Source of the DNA: Halobacterium jilantaiense
GTDB lineage: Archaea; Halobacteriota; Halobacteria; Halobacteriales; Halobacteriaceae
NCBI RefSeq assembly: GCF_900110535.1
Contig: NZ_FOJA01000001.1
Coordinates: 1,895,393-1,959,392, forward strand
DNA: 64,000 nt
Direction: 5' to 3'
Position numbers and translations under genes: made by a program. The notes below the pieces were generated by a model that did not search any database, was not told where the DNA came from, and was given only the letters and a program-made list of their open reading frames with translations. Each line of letters begins with the position of its first letter. Position 1 is the stretch's first letter. Below, piece by piece: positions 19,173 through 47,265 of the stretch.

Positions 19173-19220
19173 CGTTCGGGACCGAATGCGTCTTTGGGCT
19201 GGGGGCCGTTCGCCCGACAA

Positions 19221-20132
19221 ATGAGCGGGGACTACGGGCTGACCGAGGAGACCGAGGGAGCGCCCGGCGACGAGTTCGAGGAGATTGACGTCCGGGACAC
19301 CGAGGCCGACCGTATCGCCCGCGAGCAGGACCGCGAGTTCGCCGAGTTCCGGAAGCGGCTGAAGGACACCGAACAGTTCAAACTCGACGACGGCGCGTTC
19401 GACGACGCGACGTACGCGGCCATCTACAAGCTCGTGCAGGACGGCCACCTGGGAGCGATGGGCGGCCCAATCTCCACGGGGAAGGAGGCGAACGTCTACG
19501 AGGCGTTGGACGGCGAGGGCGGCGACGTGGCGACGAAGGTCTACCGCATCAACGCCTCGAACTTCAAGCAGATGCGGGACTATCTGGAGGGCGACCCGCG
19601 CTTCGAGGGGCTGCGCGGCGACAAGAAGGCGGTCGTGCTGTCGTGGACGCGCAAGGAGTTCTCGAATCTCCAGCGCGCGAAGACGGCGGGCGTGCGGGTT
19701 CCCGAGCCGCTGGCGGTCCAGCGGAACGTCCTCGTGATGGAGCTCATCGGCAGGGAGGGCGACGCCGCGTCGAAGCTCAGCGACGTGACGGTCGAGAACC
19801 CCCAGATGGCGTACGAGGTTGTCCGCGAGTACGTGCGGCGGCTGTACGACGCGGGGCTGGTCCACGGCGACCTCTCGGAGTACAACGTCGTCGTCTACGA
19901 GGGCGAACTGGTCGTCATCGATGTCGGGCAAGCGGTGACCGTCCACCACCCGAGCAGCGCCGACCTGCTGGAGCGGGACTGCCGGAACGTCGCGAACTTC
20001 TTCGCGCGGCAGGGCGCGGACGCCGACCCCGACGACCTCCTGACGTACGTCCGCGAGCACGCGAACCCGCGCTCGGAGGAGGACACGGAGGCCGGCGAAC
20101 GGGACGGTATGGCACCGGACGACGAGGCCTGA
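19221..20132 (+). CDS. rio1: RIO1 family atypical protein kinase
   Basis: RIO-type serine kinase/ATPase acting in late maturation of the small ribosomal subunit. In 303 residues the N-terminal helix region is acidic. It is followed by the flexible nucleotide loop STGKEANVYEAL, the lysine region VATKVYRI, the hinge VLVMELIG, the catalytic loop VHGDLSEYN and the metal-binding VIDVGQA. The end is disordered and acidic (EAGERDGMAPDDEA). The ATG at 19221 follows a TATAAATA promoter. Nearby aIF1A and Dim2 fit the same pathway. Confidence 0.95.
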   Translation: MSGDYGLTEETEGAPGDEFEEIDVRDTEADRIAREQDREFAEFRKRLKDTEQFKLDDGAFDDATYAAIYKLVQDGHLGAMGGPISTGKEANVYEALDGEGGDVATKVYRINASNFKQMRDYLEGDPRFEGLRGDKKAVVLSWTRKEFSNLQRAKTAGVRVPEPLAVQRNVLVMELIGREGDAASKLSDVTVENPQMAYEVVREYVRRLYDAGLVHGDLSEYNVVVYEGELVVIDVGQAVTVHHPSSADLLERDCRNVANFFARQGADADPDDLLTYVREHANPRSEEDTEAGERDGMAPDDEA

Positions 20133-20190
20133 CTCGGGCGCGCCGAGCCCCACCGAAACCATTTTTGGCGTGCTGCCCGCAGTCCGGAGT

Positions 20191-20259
20191 ATGCAGACCG
20201 CTCCCTGCGGCTGGCGCTGGCGTCCCCGGGGAGCGGACAGTCTCGCCGCCGCGGCCTGA
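20191..20259 (+). CDS. Trp-containing leader peptide before trpS2
   Basis: A 22-codon mini-ORF starting MQTAPCGWRW (Trp at positions 8 and 10), then Arg, Pro and an Ala-rich end, closed by TGA at 20257-20259. CATTTTTGG at about 20158-20166 lies 25-29 bases upstream, so a leaderless transcript starting at this ATG is plausible. The next gene in the direction of transcription is a tryptophanyl-tRNA synthetase whose ATG is 96 bases after the stop. Two near-adjacent Trp codons in such a short ORF in front of trpS suggest a leader that senses charged tRNA-Trp. It was recognised by composition and position only; no homologue was consulted. Confidence 0.65.
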   Translation: MQTAPCGWRWRPRGADSLAAAA

Positions 20260-20355
20260 CGGGCGTCACCCGCTCGGGCACGGGGCGTGGCTCACTTCGT
20301 TCTCTCCGTCTCGCGCACTGTCTTCCGACCACCAGCCACGCCACGACACCCACAC
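20260..20355 (+). promoter_or_regulatory. trpS2 leader with alternative hairpins
   Basis: Directly after the leader stop, CGGG (20260-20263) can pair with CCCG (20269-20272) around CGTCA. Further on, CACG (20279-20282) can pair with CGTG (20286-20289) around GGG. GAGCGG inside the mini-ORF can alternatively pair with CCGCTC at 20270-20275, which would compete with the first hairpin. The remaining bases to the ATG are pyrimidine-rich. No typical U-run terminator is seen, so any control could act on translation rather than on termination. Confidence 0.5.
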
Positions 20356-21492
20356 ATGACAGACGACGACACGGTGACGCCGCACAGCGTCGCGGGCGAC
20401 CTCGACTACGAGAAGCTGCTCGCCCGCTTCGGCGCGGACGAACTGACCGACGACCAGCGCGCCCGGTTCCCCGACCACCCTCTGGTTCGCCGGGGGCTGT
20501 TCTACGCGGGCCGGGGCGTCTCCGACTTCCTCGCGGCCGACACGCAGTCTATCGTGACCGGCGTCGGTCCCTCTGGGCCGATGCACCTCGGGCACGCGAT
20601 GGTGTTCTACTTCGCGAAACGCCTGCAGGACGACCTCGGCGCGCGGGTCTACATTCCGATCTCCGACGACGAGAAGTACTGGTTCAAAGACCAGACGCCG
20701 ACGGAGACCGGCGACTACCTCCGGGAGAACCTCCGTGACCTGCTCGCGGTCGGCTTCGACCCCGAACTCACGCGAATTGTCGTCGACACCCGGGACGCCG
20801 ACGTGGTCTATCCGCTGGCGACGGCGTTCGCGAAGAACGTCACGGGGTCGACGCTGGAGAGCGTCTACGGTGCCCCCGAGAACATCGGGCAGGCGTTCTA
20901 CCCAGCCGTCCAGACCGCCCACCTCCTGCTCCCGCAGCTGGTCCACGGCGACCACGAGACGCTGGTCCCCATCGCCGTCGACCAGGACCCCCACGTCCGG
21001 GTGAGCCGGGACGTGGCAGCGAAGGCCCGCTACCCGGTGGGGAAGCCCGGCGCGCTCCTGATGCAGTTCCTGCCGTCGCTCGCGGGCCCGGGGAAGATGA
21101 GTAGCTCCGAGGGCGTCTCGATTCGGCTCACAGACGACCCCGACACCGTCCGCGAGAAGGTCCGGAAGCACGCCTACACGGGCGGCCGCGCGAGCGTCGA
21201 GGCACACCGCGAGCAGGGCGGCGTCCCCGAGGAGGACGTGCCATTCCAGTACTTGTCGGCGTTCTTCGAGCCCGACGACGAGGAACTCGCGCGCATCGAA
21301 TGCGAGTACCGGGCGGGCGAGTTGCTCTCGGGCGAACTCAAGGAACTCGCCGCCGACCGCATCGTCGACTTCCTCGCCGACCACCAGTCCCGTCGCGACG
21401 CGCTCGTGGACGTCGACGCGGAACTGGCCCCGTTCCGTCTCACCGACGCCGAGCGCGAGCGCGCCCGCGGGGCCGTCGGGTTCGGGTACTGA
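20356..21492 (+). CDS. trpS2: Tryptophanyl-tRNA synthetase, short paralogue
   Basis: Class I synthetase charging tRNA-Trp, 378 residues, the usual archaeal length. HIGH reads HLGH in GPSGPMHLGHAMVFYFAKRL, and KMSKS is KMSSS in GPGKMSSSEGVS. The characteristic DDEKYWFKDQTPTETGDYLR and IAVDQDPHVRVSRDVA are present. The ATG at 20356 is preferred; the frame is open back to the leader-peptide stop, so a longer form from GTG 20287 cannot be excluded but reads unlike a protein. A second, 514-residue TrpRS lies at 45721-47265. The Trp-codon leader suggests that this copy is the regulated one, which is an inference. Confidence 0.93.
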   Translation: MTDDDTVTPHSVAGDLDYEKLLARFGADELTDDQRARFPDHPLVRRGLFYAGRGVSDFLAADTQSIVTGVGPSGPMHLGHAMVFYFAKRLQDDLGARVYIPISDDEKYWFKDQTPTETGDYLRENLRDLLAVGFDPELTRIVVDTRDADVVYPLATAFAKNVTGSTLESVYGAPENIGQAFYPAVQTAHLLLPQLVHGDHETLVPIAVDQDPHVRVSRDVAAKARYPVGKPGALLMQFLPSLAGPGKMSSSEGVSIRLTDDPDTVREKVRKHAYTGGRASVEAHREQGGVPEEDVPFQYLSAFFEPDDEELARIECEYRAGELLSGELKELAADRIVDFLADHQSRRDALVDVDAELAPFRLTDAERERARGAVGFGY

Positions 21493-44692: not shown

Positions 44693-45724
44693 ATGAACGG
44701 CGACCTTCGCGGGGACGAGGTGCACGTCGGCGGGGACGCCCGCCAGCGGTTCCACGACGCCCGCGGGTACGGCTACCCGCTGGGCGGCAACGACATCGCG
44801 CTGTCGCTCGTGGAGGCCGCCCACCTCCTGTTCCGCGGGGACCTCGAGGCGGTCGACGGTCAGGGGTTCCGTGCGTTCCTCGCGGACCGCGAGGCGGGGT
44901 TCGTCGCGCGCTTCCTCGTCTACGTCGACCTCCGTGACCGGGGGTTCTACCTCGTGCCCGACCAGAAGCCGTGGTGGCACGAACCGGGCGACGGCGACTT
45001 CGTGGTGTTCCCGCGCGGGAACACGCGACGGGACGGCGTCGTGAAACACCGGATTCGCGTGGTCGACGAACGGACGACGCTGCCCGCCAGCGGCCTCACC
45101 GACGAGGTGCTGGCGGTCGTCGACGAGGAGAGCGAACTCACGTACCTCGATGTCTCCCCCGAGACCCCCGAGGGCGACACGGAGTTCGACCGGCCCGCAG
45201 ACGTGCCGGCCGTGCTGTTCGACGACCGCGTGCTCGTCTGGGAGCCGCCCGCGGAACTCCACGAGTCCGGGTTCTACGGCCAGCCGCTGGGCGGCCGCGC
45301 CGCCGACCACGACGCCCTCCAGCTGTCCCTGCTCGAAGCGGCCTACCTCACGGACGCCGGCGTGCTGTCGTTCGCGGACGCCGGCGTCGCGGACGTGCTG
45401 GCCCGCGGCCGCGTCGGCGAGGGCGAGCGGTTCGACCGCCGGCTGGCGGTCTACCGCGCGCTCCGGGACGCCGCCATGGTCCCGAAGACCGGGTTCAAGT
45501 TCGGTGCCGACTTCCGGGTGTACTCCGGCGTGGAGTCGGTCGACGACCTCGGGCACTCCGAACTCCTGGTTCGGGTCGTCGAGACGGACCACGACTTCGT
45601 CCCACGGGACCTCTCGCTGGACGTGCGGCTGGCGCACGGCGTCCGCAAGCGAATGGTTTTTGCAATCACCGACGACACGAATGACACGATTCGCTGGCTC
45701 TCCGTCAGTCGACTGACGCCATGA
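44693..45724 (+). CDS. endA: tRNA-splicing endonuclease
   Basis: Removes introns from archaeal pre-tRNA at bulge-helix-bulge motifs. The 343-residue chain is a fusion of two endonuclease-fold repeats: GYPLGG...LSLVEAAHLLFRGD and FYGQPLGGRA...QLSLLEAAYLTDAG. This is the epsilon/alpha2-type architecture found in Halobacteria. Catalytic residues are expected in the second half: Tyr in FRVYSG, His in LGHSELLVR and Lys in GVRKRMVFA. The last TGA overlaps the trpS1 ATG (ATGA). Haloarchaeal tRNA-Trp contains an intron, so the pairing is functionally sensible. Confidence 0.93.
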   Translation: MNGDLRGDEVHVGGDARQRFHDARGYGYPLGGNDIALSLVEAAHLLFRGDLEAVDGQGFRAFLADREAGFVARFLVYVDLRDRGFYLVPDQKPWWHEPGDGDFVVFPRGNTRRDGVVKHRIRVVDERTTLPASGLTDEVLAVVDEESELTYLDVSPETPEGDTEFDRPADVPAVLFDDRVLVWEPPAELHESGFYGQPLGGRAADHDALQLSLLEAAYLTDAGVLSFADAGVADVLARGRVGEGERFDRRLAVYRALRDAAMVPKTGFKFGADFRVYSGVESVDDLGHSELLVRVVETDHDFVPRDLSLDVRLAHGVRKRMVFAITDDTNDTIRWLSVSRLTP

Positions 45725-47265
45725 CCGACGACAACACATCCACGGCCGGTGCGGACGACCTGGCACTCGACCCCTGGGGTTCGACGACCGTCTCCGACTA
45801 CCGCAAACTCTTCGAGGAGTTCGGTATCGAAGCCTTCGAGGACGTTCTCGACGAGGTGCCCGCGCCCCACTACCTGATGCGGCGCGCCATCATCTTCGGC
45901 CACCGCGATTACCGCCGGGTGGCGTCGGCGATGCGCAACGACGAGCCGTTCGCTGCGCTCTCCGGGTTCATGCCGACCGGCGACCCGCACATCGGCCACA
46001 AGATGGTGTTCGACGAGATCATCTGGCACCAGCAGCAGGGCGGCGACGCGTACGCGCTCATCGCCGACCTCGAAGCCCACTCCGCTCGCGGTCTGGACTG
46101 GGACGAAATCGACGAGCACGCCAAAGACTACTTGCTCTCGCTGCTCGCGCTCGGCTTCGACGCCGAGGCGGGCGAGCTCTATCGGCAGTCCACGAACCGC
46201 GAACTCCAGGACCTCGCGTTCGAACTCGGTATCGAGGCGAACTTCTCGGAGTTCGAGGCCATCTACGGGTTCGGTGGCGACACCGACGTGTCCCACATGC
46301 AGAGTGTCGTCACCCAGATGGCGGACATTCTCTACCCCCAGCTGGACGAGCCGAAGCCGACCGTCATCCCGGTCGGCCCCGACCAGGACCCCCACGTGCG
46401 GTTCGCTCGCGACCTCGCAGAGCGCACGCGGTACTTCAAGGTCACAGAGGCGTTCGCGAGCGTCGCGTTCGACGACGACGAGCGCCCGCTCGTCCGCGCG
46501 GCCTACGACGCCCGCGGCGAGTACGCGGAAGACGCCGACCAGCCCCGGTGCACGGAGGCCGCCGACTGGCTCGAAGCGGGGCCGGAGGCGGCTGCGGGCT
46601 TCGACGCCGAGACCGTAGACGCGGTCGTCCAGAAACTGGAGAACGCCGGGATGGAGCCGCTCCGCCCGCGGATTCGGTTCTTCGACCGGCAGGCGACCGA
46701 CGAGGCCTTCGAAGCCCTGATAGGCGAGATTGCCGGCGAGAAGCGCGTCTTCGACGGCCACGTCGACGCCTTCGACATGGAGATGGAGACCGCCGAGGAC
46801 CTCGCGCTCGCCGTCGAGGTCGACCACGGCGGCTACGGCTTCGTCCCGCCGTCGTCGGTCTACCACCGCTTCATGACCGGGCTGACGGGTGGGAAGATGT
46901 CCTCCTCGATTCCCGCGAGTCACATCAGCCTGCTCGACGACCCCGAGGACGGCTACGACAAGGTCAAGTCCGCGACGACCGGCGGCCGCGAGACCGCCGA
47001 GAAGCAGCGCGAACTCGGCGGTGAGGCCGACGAGTGCCCGGTCTACGAGCTGTACGCCTACCTGCTCGCGGGCGACGACGACGGGCTCGCCGAAGACGTG
47101 TACTCGGAGTGCGTGAACGGCGAACGGCTCTGTGGCGGCTGCAAGGAGCAGGCCGCCGAACTGATGCAGGAGTTCCTCGAAGACCATCAGAAGAAACGTG
47201 AGGAAGCCCGCGAGGTGCTCGCCGACCTCGACATCGAGCTGGACGCGGCGGGCTCTCGGGCCTGA
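45721..47265 (+). CDS. trpS1: Tryptophanyl-tRNA synthetase, long paralogue
   Basis: Class I synthetase charging tRNA-Trp, 514 residues, far longer than the 378-residue paralogue at 20356. HIGH is HIGH in SGFMPTGDPHIGHKMVFDE, and KMSKS is KMSSS in TGGKMSSSIPASH. The N-terminal extension carries LDPWGSTTVSDYRKLFEEFG, the archaeal/eukaryotic TrpRS start. An insertion lies between the fold and the KMSSS loop (residues about 255-350). The C-terminal CVNGERLCGGCKEQ with CPVYELYAYLL is typical. It is translationally coupled to endA. Probably the housekeeping enzyme. Confidence 0.93.
   Translation: MTDDNTSTAGADDLALDPWGSTTVSDYRKLFEEFGIEAFEDVLDEVPAPHYLMRRAIIFGHRDYRRVASAMRNDEPFAALSGFMPTGDPHIGHKMVFDEIIWHQQQGGDAYALIADLEAHSARGLDWDEIDEHAKDYLLSLLALGFDAEAGELYRQSTNRELQDLAFELGIEANFSEFEAIYGFGGDTDVSHMQSVVTQMADILYPQLDEPKPTVIPVGPDQDPHVRFARDLAERTRYFKVTEAFASVAFDDDERPLVRAAYDARGEYAEDADQPRCTEAADWLEAGPEAAAGFDAETVDAVVQKLENAGMEPLRPRIRFFDRQATDEAFEALIGEIAGEKRVFDGHVDAFDMEMETAEDLALAVEVDHGGYGFVPPSSVYHRFMTGLTGGKMSSSIPASHISLLDDPEDGYDKVKSATTGGRETAEKQRELGGEADECPVYELYAYLLAGDDDGLAEDVYSECVNGERLCGGCKEQAAELMQEFLEDHQKKREEAREVLADLDIELDAAGSRA

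Follow-up and report, generated by a model that had tools for sequence, protein, structure and literature searches.

Attenuation by leader peptides is known from textbooks as a bacterial mechanism, represented by the E. coli trp operon attenuator (trpL) and the pheST leader (pheM), both of which combine tandem regulatory codons with mutually exclusive hairpins. In Streptomyces, attenuators have been predicted for trpS and leuS, including trpS2 of S. avermitilis (PMC1262725), and the study of Vecchione and Sello (2010; cited in PMC4787780) places, according to its title, a Streptomyces auxiliary tryptophanyl-tRNA synthetase (TrpRS) gene under ribosome-mediated attenuation. No direct description of leader-peptide attenuation in archaea was found in the open literature, subscription journals being mostly outside the search. 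The H. volcanii start-site map reports, in the section that lists both, a 23-aa upstream ORF (uORF) before HVO_A0127 (tryptophan--tRNA ligase) and a 26-aa uORF before pheS, each within a 5'UTR of 150-250 nt and with no additional start at the main gene; the codons of the two uORFs are left undiscussed in that section (PMC4983044). The Haloferax trpS and pheS leaders found here are 23 and 26 aa long, a match to the H. volcanii uORFs that is by length only.

The 165-nt region preceding trpS2 in the 64 kb window (the whole stretch of Halobacterium jilantaiense DNA that was analysed) is, judging from sequence comparison and folding, very probably a ribosome-mediated attenuator that would sense charged tRNA-Trp by ribosome stalling. 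This is the reading put forward in the initial annotation, and it is supported by conserved in-frame Trp codons, by covariation of the helices P1, P2 and P5, and by a predicted switch between them. The region resembles the Streptomyces auxiliary TrpRS attenuator in its short Trp leader peptide, its alternative RNA structures and the accessory, second TrpRS gene that follows. However, the related bacterial attenuators of Streptomyces use a GC-rich terminator hairpin with poly-U, whereas the haloarchaeal leader has a sequestered pyrimidine tract and no poly-U, is archaeal, probably has a leaderless start, and displays its Trp codons within the first hairpin's loop. With E. coli trpL and pheM it shares tandem regulatory codons in a leader ORF and mutually exclusive hairpins, but it differs in architecture, sequence and domain of life, and lacks a 3:4 terminator followed by poly-U. 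A likeness to the T-box riboswitch, in that synthetase genes are under tRNA-charging control and the codon is displayed in a loop, is offset by the lack of an Rfam T-box match and by codons that are in frame with a start and a stop.

The tryptophan-codon leader and its conservation

The initial annotation had described a 22-codon ORF with Trp at positions 8 and 10, ending in TGA behind a TATA-like box and situated directly before a TrpRS gene. All of these elements are present (Table 1), and the downstream product is a genuine TrpRS, matching NCBIfam NF008927 with 522.8 bits against a cut-off of 478. The sequence also confirms that the mini-ORF is in frame with trpS2, which starts 165 nt downstream, and that this frame stays open past the TGA. 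The TATA centre, read from the sequence, lies ca. 27 nt 5' of the leader ATG, and the trpS2 transcript is therefore probably leaderless or nearly so, beginning at the mini-ORF; in H. volcanii, leaderless transcripts make up about 72% of the total (PMC7531240). Among the 86 loci compared, the commonest start of the best AT-rich 8-mer is -33 or -32 from the start codon (36 loci), and no TATA-like box was seen between leader and trpS2 when the window sequence was read.

Table 1. Features of the trpS2 leader region and related genes in the window.
Feature	Positions	Strand	Details	Basis
RIO1 kinase gene	19194-20132		upstream neighbour of the leader region
BRE/TATA-like promoter	20154-20168	+	CGAAAC, then CATTTTTGG (20160-20168)
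Leader ORF MQTAPCGWRWRPRGADSLAAAA	20191-20259	+	22 codons, stop TGA
Strand A	20198-20207	+	5' arm of P1	covariation, fold
Leader Trp codons	20212-20214 and 20218-20220	+	codons 8 and 10 of the leader ORF
Strand B	20227-20238	+	3' side of P1, or pairs with tract F instead (P5)	covariation, fold
Strand C	20239-20251	+	5' side of P2, begins AGT (nearly invariant)	covariation
P3	20260-20278	+	CGGG 20260-20263, CCCG 20269-20272, CGGG 20275-20278	sequence
Strand D	20280-20292	+	3' side of P2, ends in invariant GCT; could pair with 20334-20342 (P4)
GCUC and pyrimidine tract F	20290-20307	+	invariant GCUC (then MCU); 20296-20305 pairs with B in P5
Strand E, AGCCACGCC	20334-20342	+	could pair with D (P4), close upstream of the trpS2 start	weaker support
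trpS2	20356-21492	+	accessory tryptophanyl-tRNA synthetase	NCBIfam match
trpS1	45721-47259 (about)	+	housekeeping long-form TrpRS, same window

A Trp mini-ORF stands before trpS2 far beyond chance, and its conservation is decisive. The mini-ORF is present in nearly all of the collected trpS2 loci that have upstream sequence (80 named loci and about 25 from further relatives), and the 86 aligned haloarchaeal trpS leaders carry one to four Trp codons. By one counting rule for all genes, in which the start codon is not chosen by the UGG frame, mini-ORFs with at least two Trp codons precede 72 of the 80 named trpS2 loci, four further leaders having one Trp, compared with 0/30 trpS1, 1/30 trpD, 2/30 hisS and 1/30 pheS control genes. 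From the start codon to the 3' arm of P1, UGG triplets are distributed 191:16:4 over frames 0, 1 and 2, a count in which frame 0 is somewhat favoured, as the frame of the first UGG pair set the choice of start codon. Between the Trp codons stands a variable triplet (CGC 65, CGT 11, CAG 8, CAC 5, CGA 3, and also CAA, CAT, CGG and TGC), and it is therefore the Trp codons, rather than a DNA word, that are kept. The leader is thus a short, putatively translated ORF in which codons for the regulated amino acid are conserved in frame. Examples are MQSAPIGWRWRAPGADSLAAAA (Halobacterium), MTAALEWQWRWQPRSRADSVLAVADAA (Natrialba) and MESTSSANCWRWHASREVDSVSV (Haloferax prahovense); the extremes are MATALEWQWRWRWQPSSRADSLVAAADAA, with four Trp, and VSTSPETDERRWR, with one, a single Trp codon being found in 4 of the 86 leaders. 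Four closely similar one-Trp leaders before trpS2 read VSTS.ETDERRWR or VFTSPETYERLWR, followed by TAG; two of these loci are plasmid-borne, and the other two are found on separate contigs in Natrialba genomes with another trpS2 locus.

Pairing alternatives in the leader RNA

In the aligned leaders, the start codon adjoins arm A of P1, the Trp codons lie in the P1 loop, and GGACAG forms the end of arm B. Hairpin P2, made up of strands C and D, follows directly after B, and the GCUC motif, invariant in 87/87 sequences, is found 54-58 nt past B in nearly all loci; the adjoining tract F is free of A at six positions (0/87 at q+10 to q+15), and in many loci the trpS2 ATG lies 54-60 nt beyond this GCUC/tract region. 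Both P1 and P2 were found unaided by RNAalifold, and together they show 89.3% paired cells, versus 34-48% when slid and 80.9% when shuffled, as well as 198 double changes versus 71.7 in shuffled alignments, a number reached by 0 of 500 shuffles. The comparison of haloarchaeal upstream regions that had been proposed as a check on the initial annotation was thus strongly positive, for the conserved Trp mini-ORF and for covarying stems alike. The position of the leader stop varies between -24 and +33 nt, counted from the 3' arm of P1, the C-terminal part of the peptide shifting frame or being missing, and in Halorussus the RNA arm GAGCGGACAGT is retained yet read in a different frame; the 3' arm of P1 is therefore conserved as RNA. 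What follows P2 is a mixed U/C tract, the canonical poly-U terminator being absent, and the element would thus work like a classical transcription attenuator without being filed as one. The fold of the single sequence was no more stable than its shuffles (z-score -0.16) and was discarded as uninformative alone.

In addition to its role in P1, strand B has complementarity to F (P5), for the most part in a single register, and P5 stacks on P2. P1 and P5 have strand B in common and are mutually exclusive, and both covary. In the P5 pair columns C-G occurs 61 times, U-G 16, U-A 6 and C-A 0 (Fisher p=2e-4, kinship ignored), the six U-A loci being spread over about four lineages; furthermore, A in B stands opposite U in 15 of 16 cases, there are two C-G changes, and own pairing (0.903) exceeds the permuted maximum (0.885). 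By plain duplex energy, own P5 partners are indistinguishable from foreign or shuffled ones, the G-rich arm B being able to pair with many pyrimidine tracts, and the support for P5 lies in column covariation and constrained folding.

When a ribosome is set on the first Trp codon in the folding, the predicted number of P1 pairs drops from 9.7 to 0.8 and that of P5 pairs goes up from 0.4 to 7.5; when only the RNA downstream of the ribosome is folded, P5 rises from 0.4 to 8.3 pairs and the unpaired value of the tract drops from 0.79 to 0.34. At least five P5 pairs are then predicted in 83/85 loci with the ribosome (downstream RNA only), versus 2/85 without it. The own tract beats a shuffled tract in 79/85 loci, a shuffled tract still giving 6.4 pairs. 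The swap from P1 to P5 is also predicted for short leaders whose stop comes directly after the Trp codons. In these computations, ribosome position selects between mutually exclusive structures, and we hold with some confidence that the P1/P5 switch is the core of the sensor. The hairpin competition of the initial annotation stands in part: the CGGG and CCCG segments after the stop are present (P3), but the main competition is that of P1 with P5, with P2 between them.

Proposed mechanism and alternative explanations

Codon conservation, covariation, the exclusivity of P1 and P5 and the predicted switch come from sequence comparison; the stalling, the output step and whether the effect raises or lowers expression we infer. 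With ample Trp-tRNA, ribosomes would clear the Trp codons and leave, P1 would re-form, tract F after P2 would remain single-stranded and trpS2 would be kept low, the exposed tract most likely permitting factor-dependent termination or cleavage, perhaps aided by P4 near the start codon. With scarce Trp-tRNA, a ribosome stalled at the Trp codons in the P1 loop would keep P1 open, and the freed arm B would pair with F (P5, extending P2), so that the tract is hidden and trpS2 expressed. Points against this reading are the missing poly-U terminator after P2, the ease with which the G-rich arm B pairs with pyrimidine tracts, the four one-Trp leaders, and the leaders before GNAT genes, in which no regulatory codon stands out. 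F can pair only after the polymerase has passed, and hiding it therefore comes too late to block an intrinsic terminator located there. A better fit would be a factor that needs an exposed tract, such as FttA/aCPSF1-like termination, known from archaea, or an RNase. Factor-dependent termination or cleavage is accordingly a tentative choice of output, with a probability that we set somewhat below even. Such a mechanism implies that ribosome position is coupled to mRNA fate in archaea, and the leader offers a natural system for finding the archaeal factor that acts at the exposed tract. Covarying, found across the order and tied to an accessory synthetase, it makes archaeal attenuation directly testable in Haloferax and Halobacterium.

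The same sensor could have a translational output, in which P2 cannot form while a ribosome stands at the leader stop, D pairs with E (P4) and initiation is blocked, while a stall at the Trp codons lets P2 form and frees the start. Strong D-E pairing is indeed seen in many lineages, the end of E lying about 8-16 nt upstream of the ATG; own D-E pairs are better than foreign ones (-14.7 versus -12.9), and in the simulation of locus L001 P2 has 9.9 pairs with the ribosome stalled and 0.1 with it at the stop, P4 going from 0 to 7.5. However, neither the position nor the sequence of P4 is fixed, its mean z is only -0.61, and the scheme is impossible for leaders with a stop directly after the Trp codons. 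P4 as the main switch is thus partly supported and fails for short leaders, and a translational output appears rather unlikely.

Both of these outputs presuppose a translating ribosome. Direct tRNA sensing without one, in the manner of a T-box, would require base pairing between the tRNA-Trp anticodon and UGG in the P1 loop, and UGG codons in a hairpin loop do resemble a specifier loop; yet UGG keeps the frame of the start codon (the 191:16:4 distribution), start and stop codons are always present, up to four Trp codons occur per leader, and no Rfam family, T-box included, is matched, either up to E=1 at positions 20000-20500 or at gathering score in seven loci. We regard this explanation as extremely improbable. 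Little more credence is given to a functional small protein, or a uORF tuning trpS2 through reinitiation, without tryptophan sensing. The uORFs listed for haloarchaeal 5'UTRs (PMC4983044) make such a role conceivable, but the Trp codons are the sole constant of the peptide, whose C-terminal part changes frame or is absent, and the gene behind the leader is cognate to its codon. This last point extends beyond trpS2 under the preferred reading, a ribosome-mediated attenuator: Trp codons precede trpS2, sole-copy trpS and trpD, and Ser codons precede serS.

Distribution of the leader and related elements

TrpS2 is a second TrpRS beside the universal housekeeping TrpS1, the latter being found in 57/59 relatives and the former in 25/59 relatives and in 148/392 genomes of the order. 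Both genes of this genome lie inside the same 64 kb window. No leader of the trpS2 kind was found before its trpS1; Trp leaders are absent before trpS1 and trpD of close relatives, as is a His leader before hisS. A covariance model (R2), which replaced a first model whose automatic structure held only 6 pairs, has matches in 146/243 genomes at E<=0.01, roughly 115 of these matches being strong, and a plain DNA pattern is matched in 53/195 genomes and four times in controls. Weak model matches, under about 30 bits, whether in the order, in genome G000 or elsewhere in the phylum, are mostly coding sequence and were judged to be chance; outside the order, only weak chance matches to the leader model were obtained.

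The leader also occurs before other genes, which we take, from recognising the proteins, to be long-form trpS, trpD, serS and GNAT genes. In several genera without detected TrpS2, it precedes long-form trpS (eleven loci), and the element has therefore moved between trpS paralogues. A Trp leader before trpS thus holds for the accessory trpS2 but is not general, trpS1 having one only in some lineages where trpS2 is not detected. One genome has the leader MLSAFRSWSWRWYRSGKRTVS before trpD (anthranilate phosphoribosyltransferase), and in one haloarchaeal genus a leader with a Ser-rich loop, MESTSRSRSQSSFWEVDS, precedes serS in two intact copies and one broken copy. The chances appear evenly balanced that this is a portable, modular haloarchaeal attenuator, one conserved hairpin switch with its loop codons exchanged to suit the amino acid sensed (Trp in front of trpS and trpD, Ser in front of serS), which would keep a pyrimidine tract out of reach of an archaeal factor for termination or cleavage, unlike the bacterial terminator/antiterminator.

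Leaders of this type, but without an obvious regulatory codon, were observed before GNAT (RimJ/RimL-like) acetyltransferase genes at five loci, and these may have to do with resistance to inhibitors of synthetases or ribosomes. A two-Trp leader of the same architecture, MVSVSYLMRWLTFWEADS, occurs twice in one genome before a SAM-dependent methyltransferase-like gene.

A separate, Phe-rich leader (MASEPHAGRSAREPARSPGFGFFFA and similar peptides), ending GFGFFF(A) at its stop, precedes 25 of 30 pheS genes, compared with 0-1 of 30 in control genes, and is probably an independent, Phe-sensing attenuator; its GFGFFF end resembles a Phe leader. If both the portable element and the independent pheS leaders are what they appear to be, one archaeal order would make wide use of ribosome-mediated attenuation. 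The pheS of this genome (near positions 1633002-1633934 of contig C1) has the Phe leader MASEPSAGRTRREPAARLGFGFFFA.
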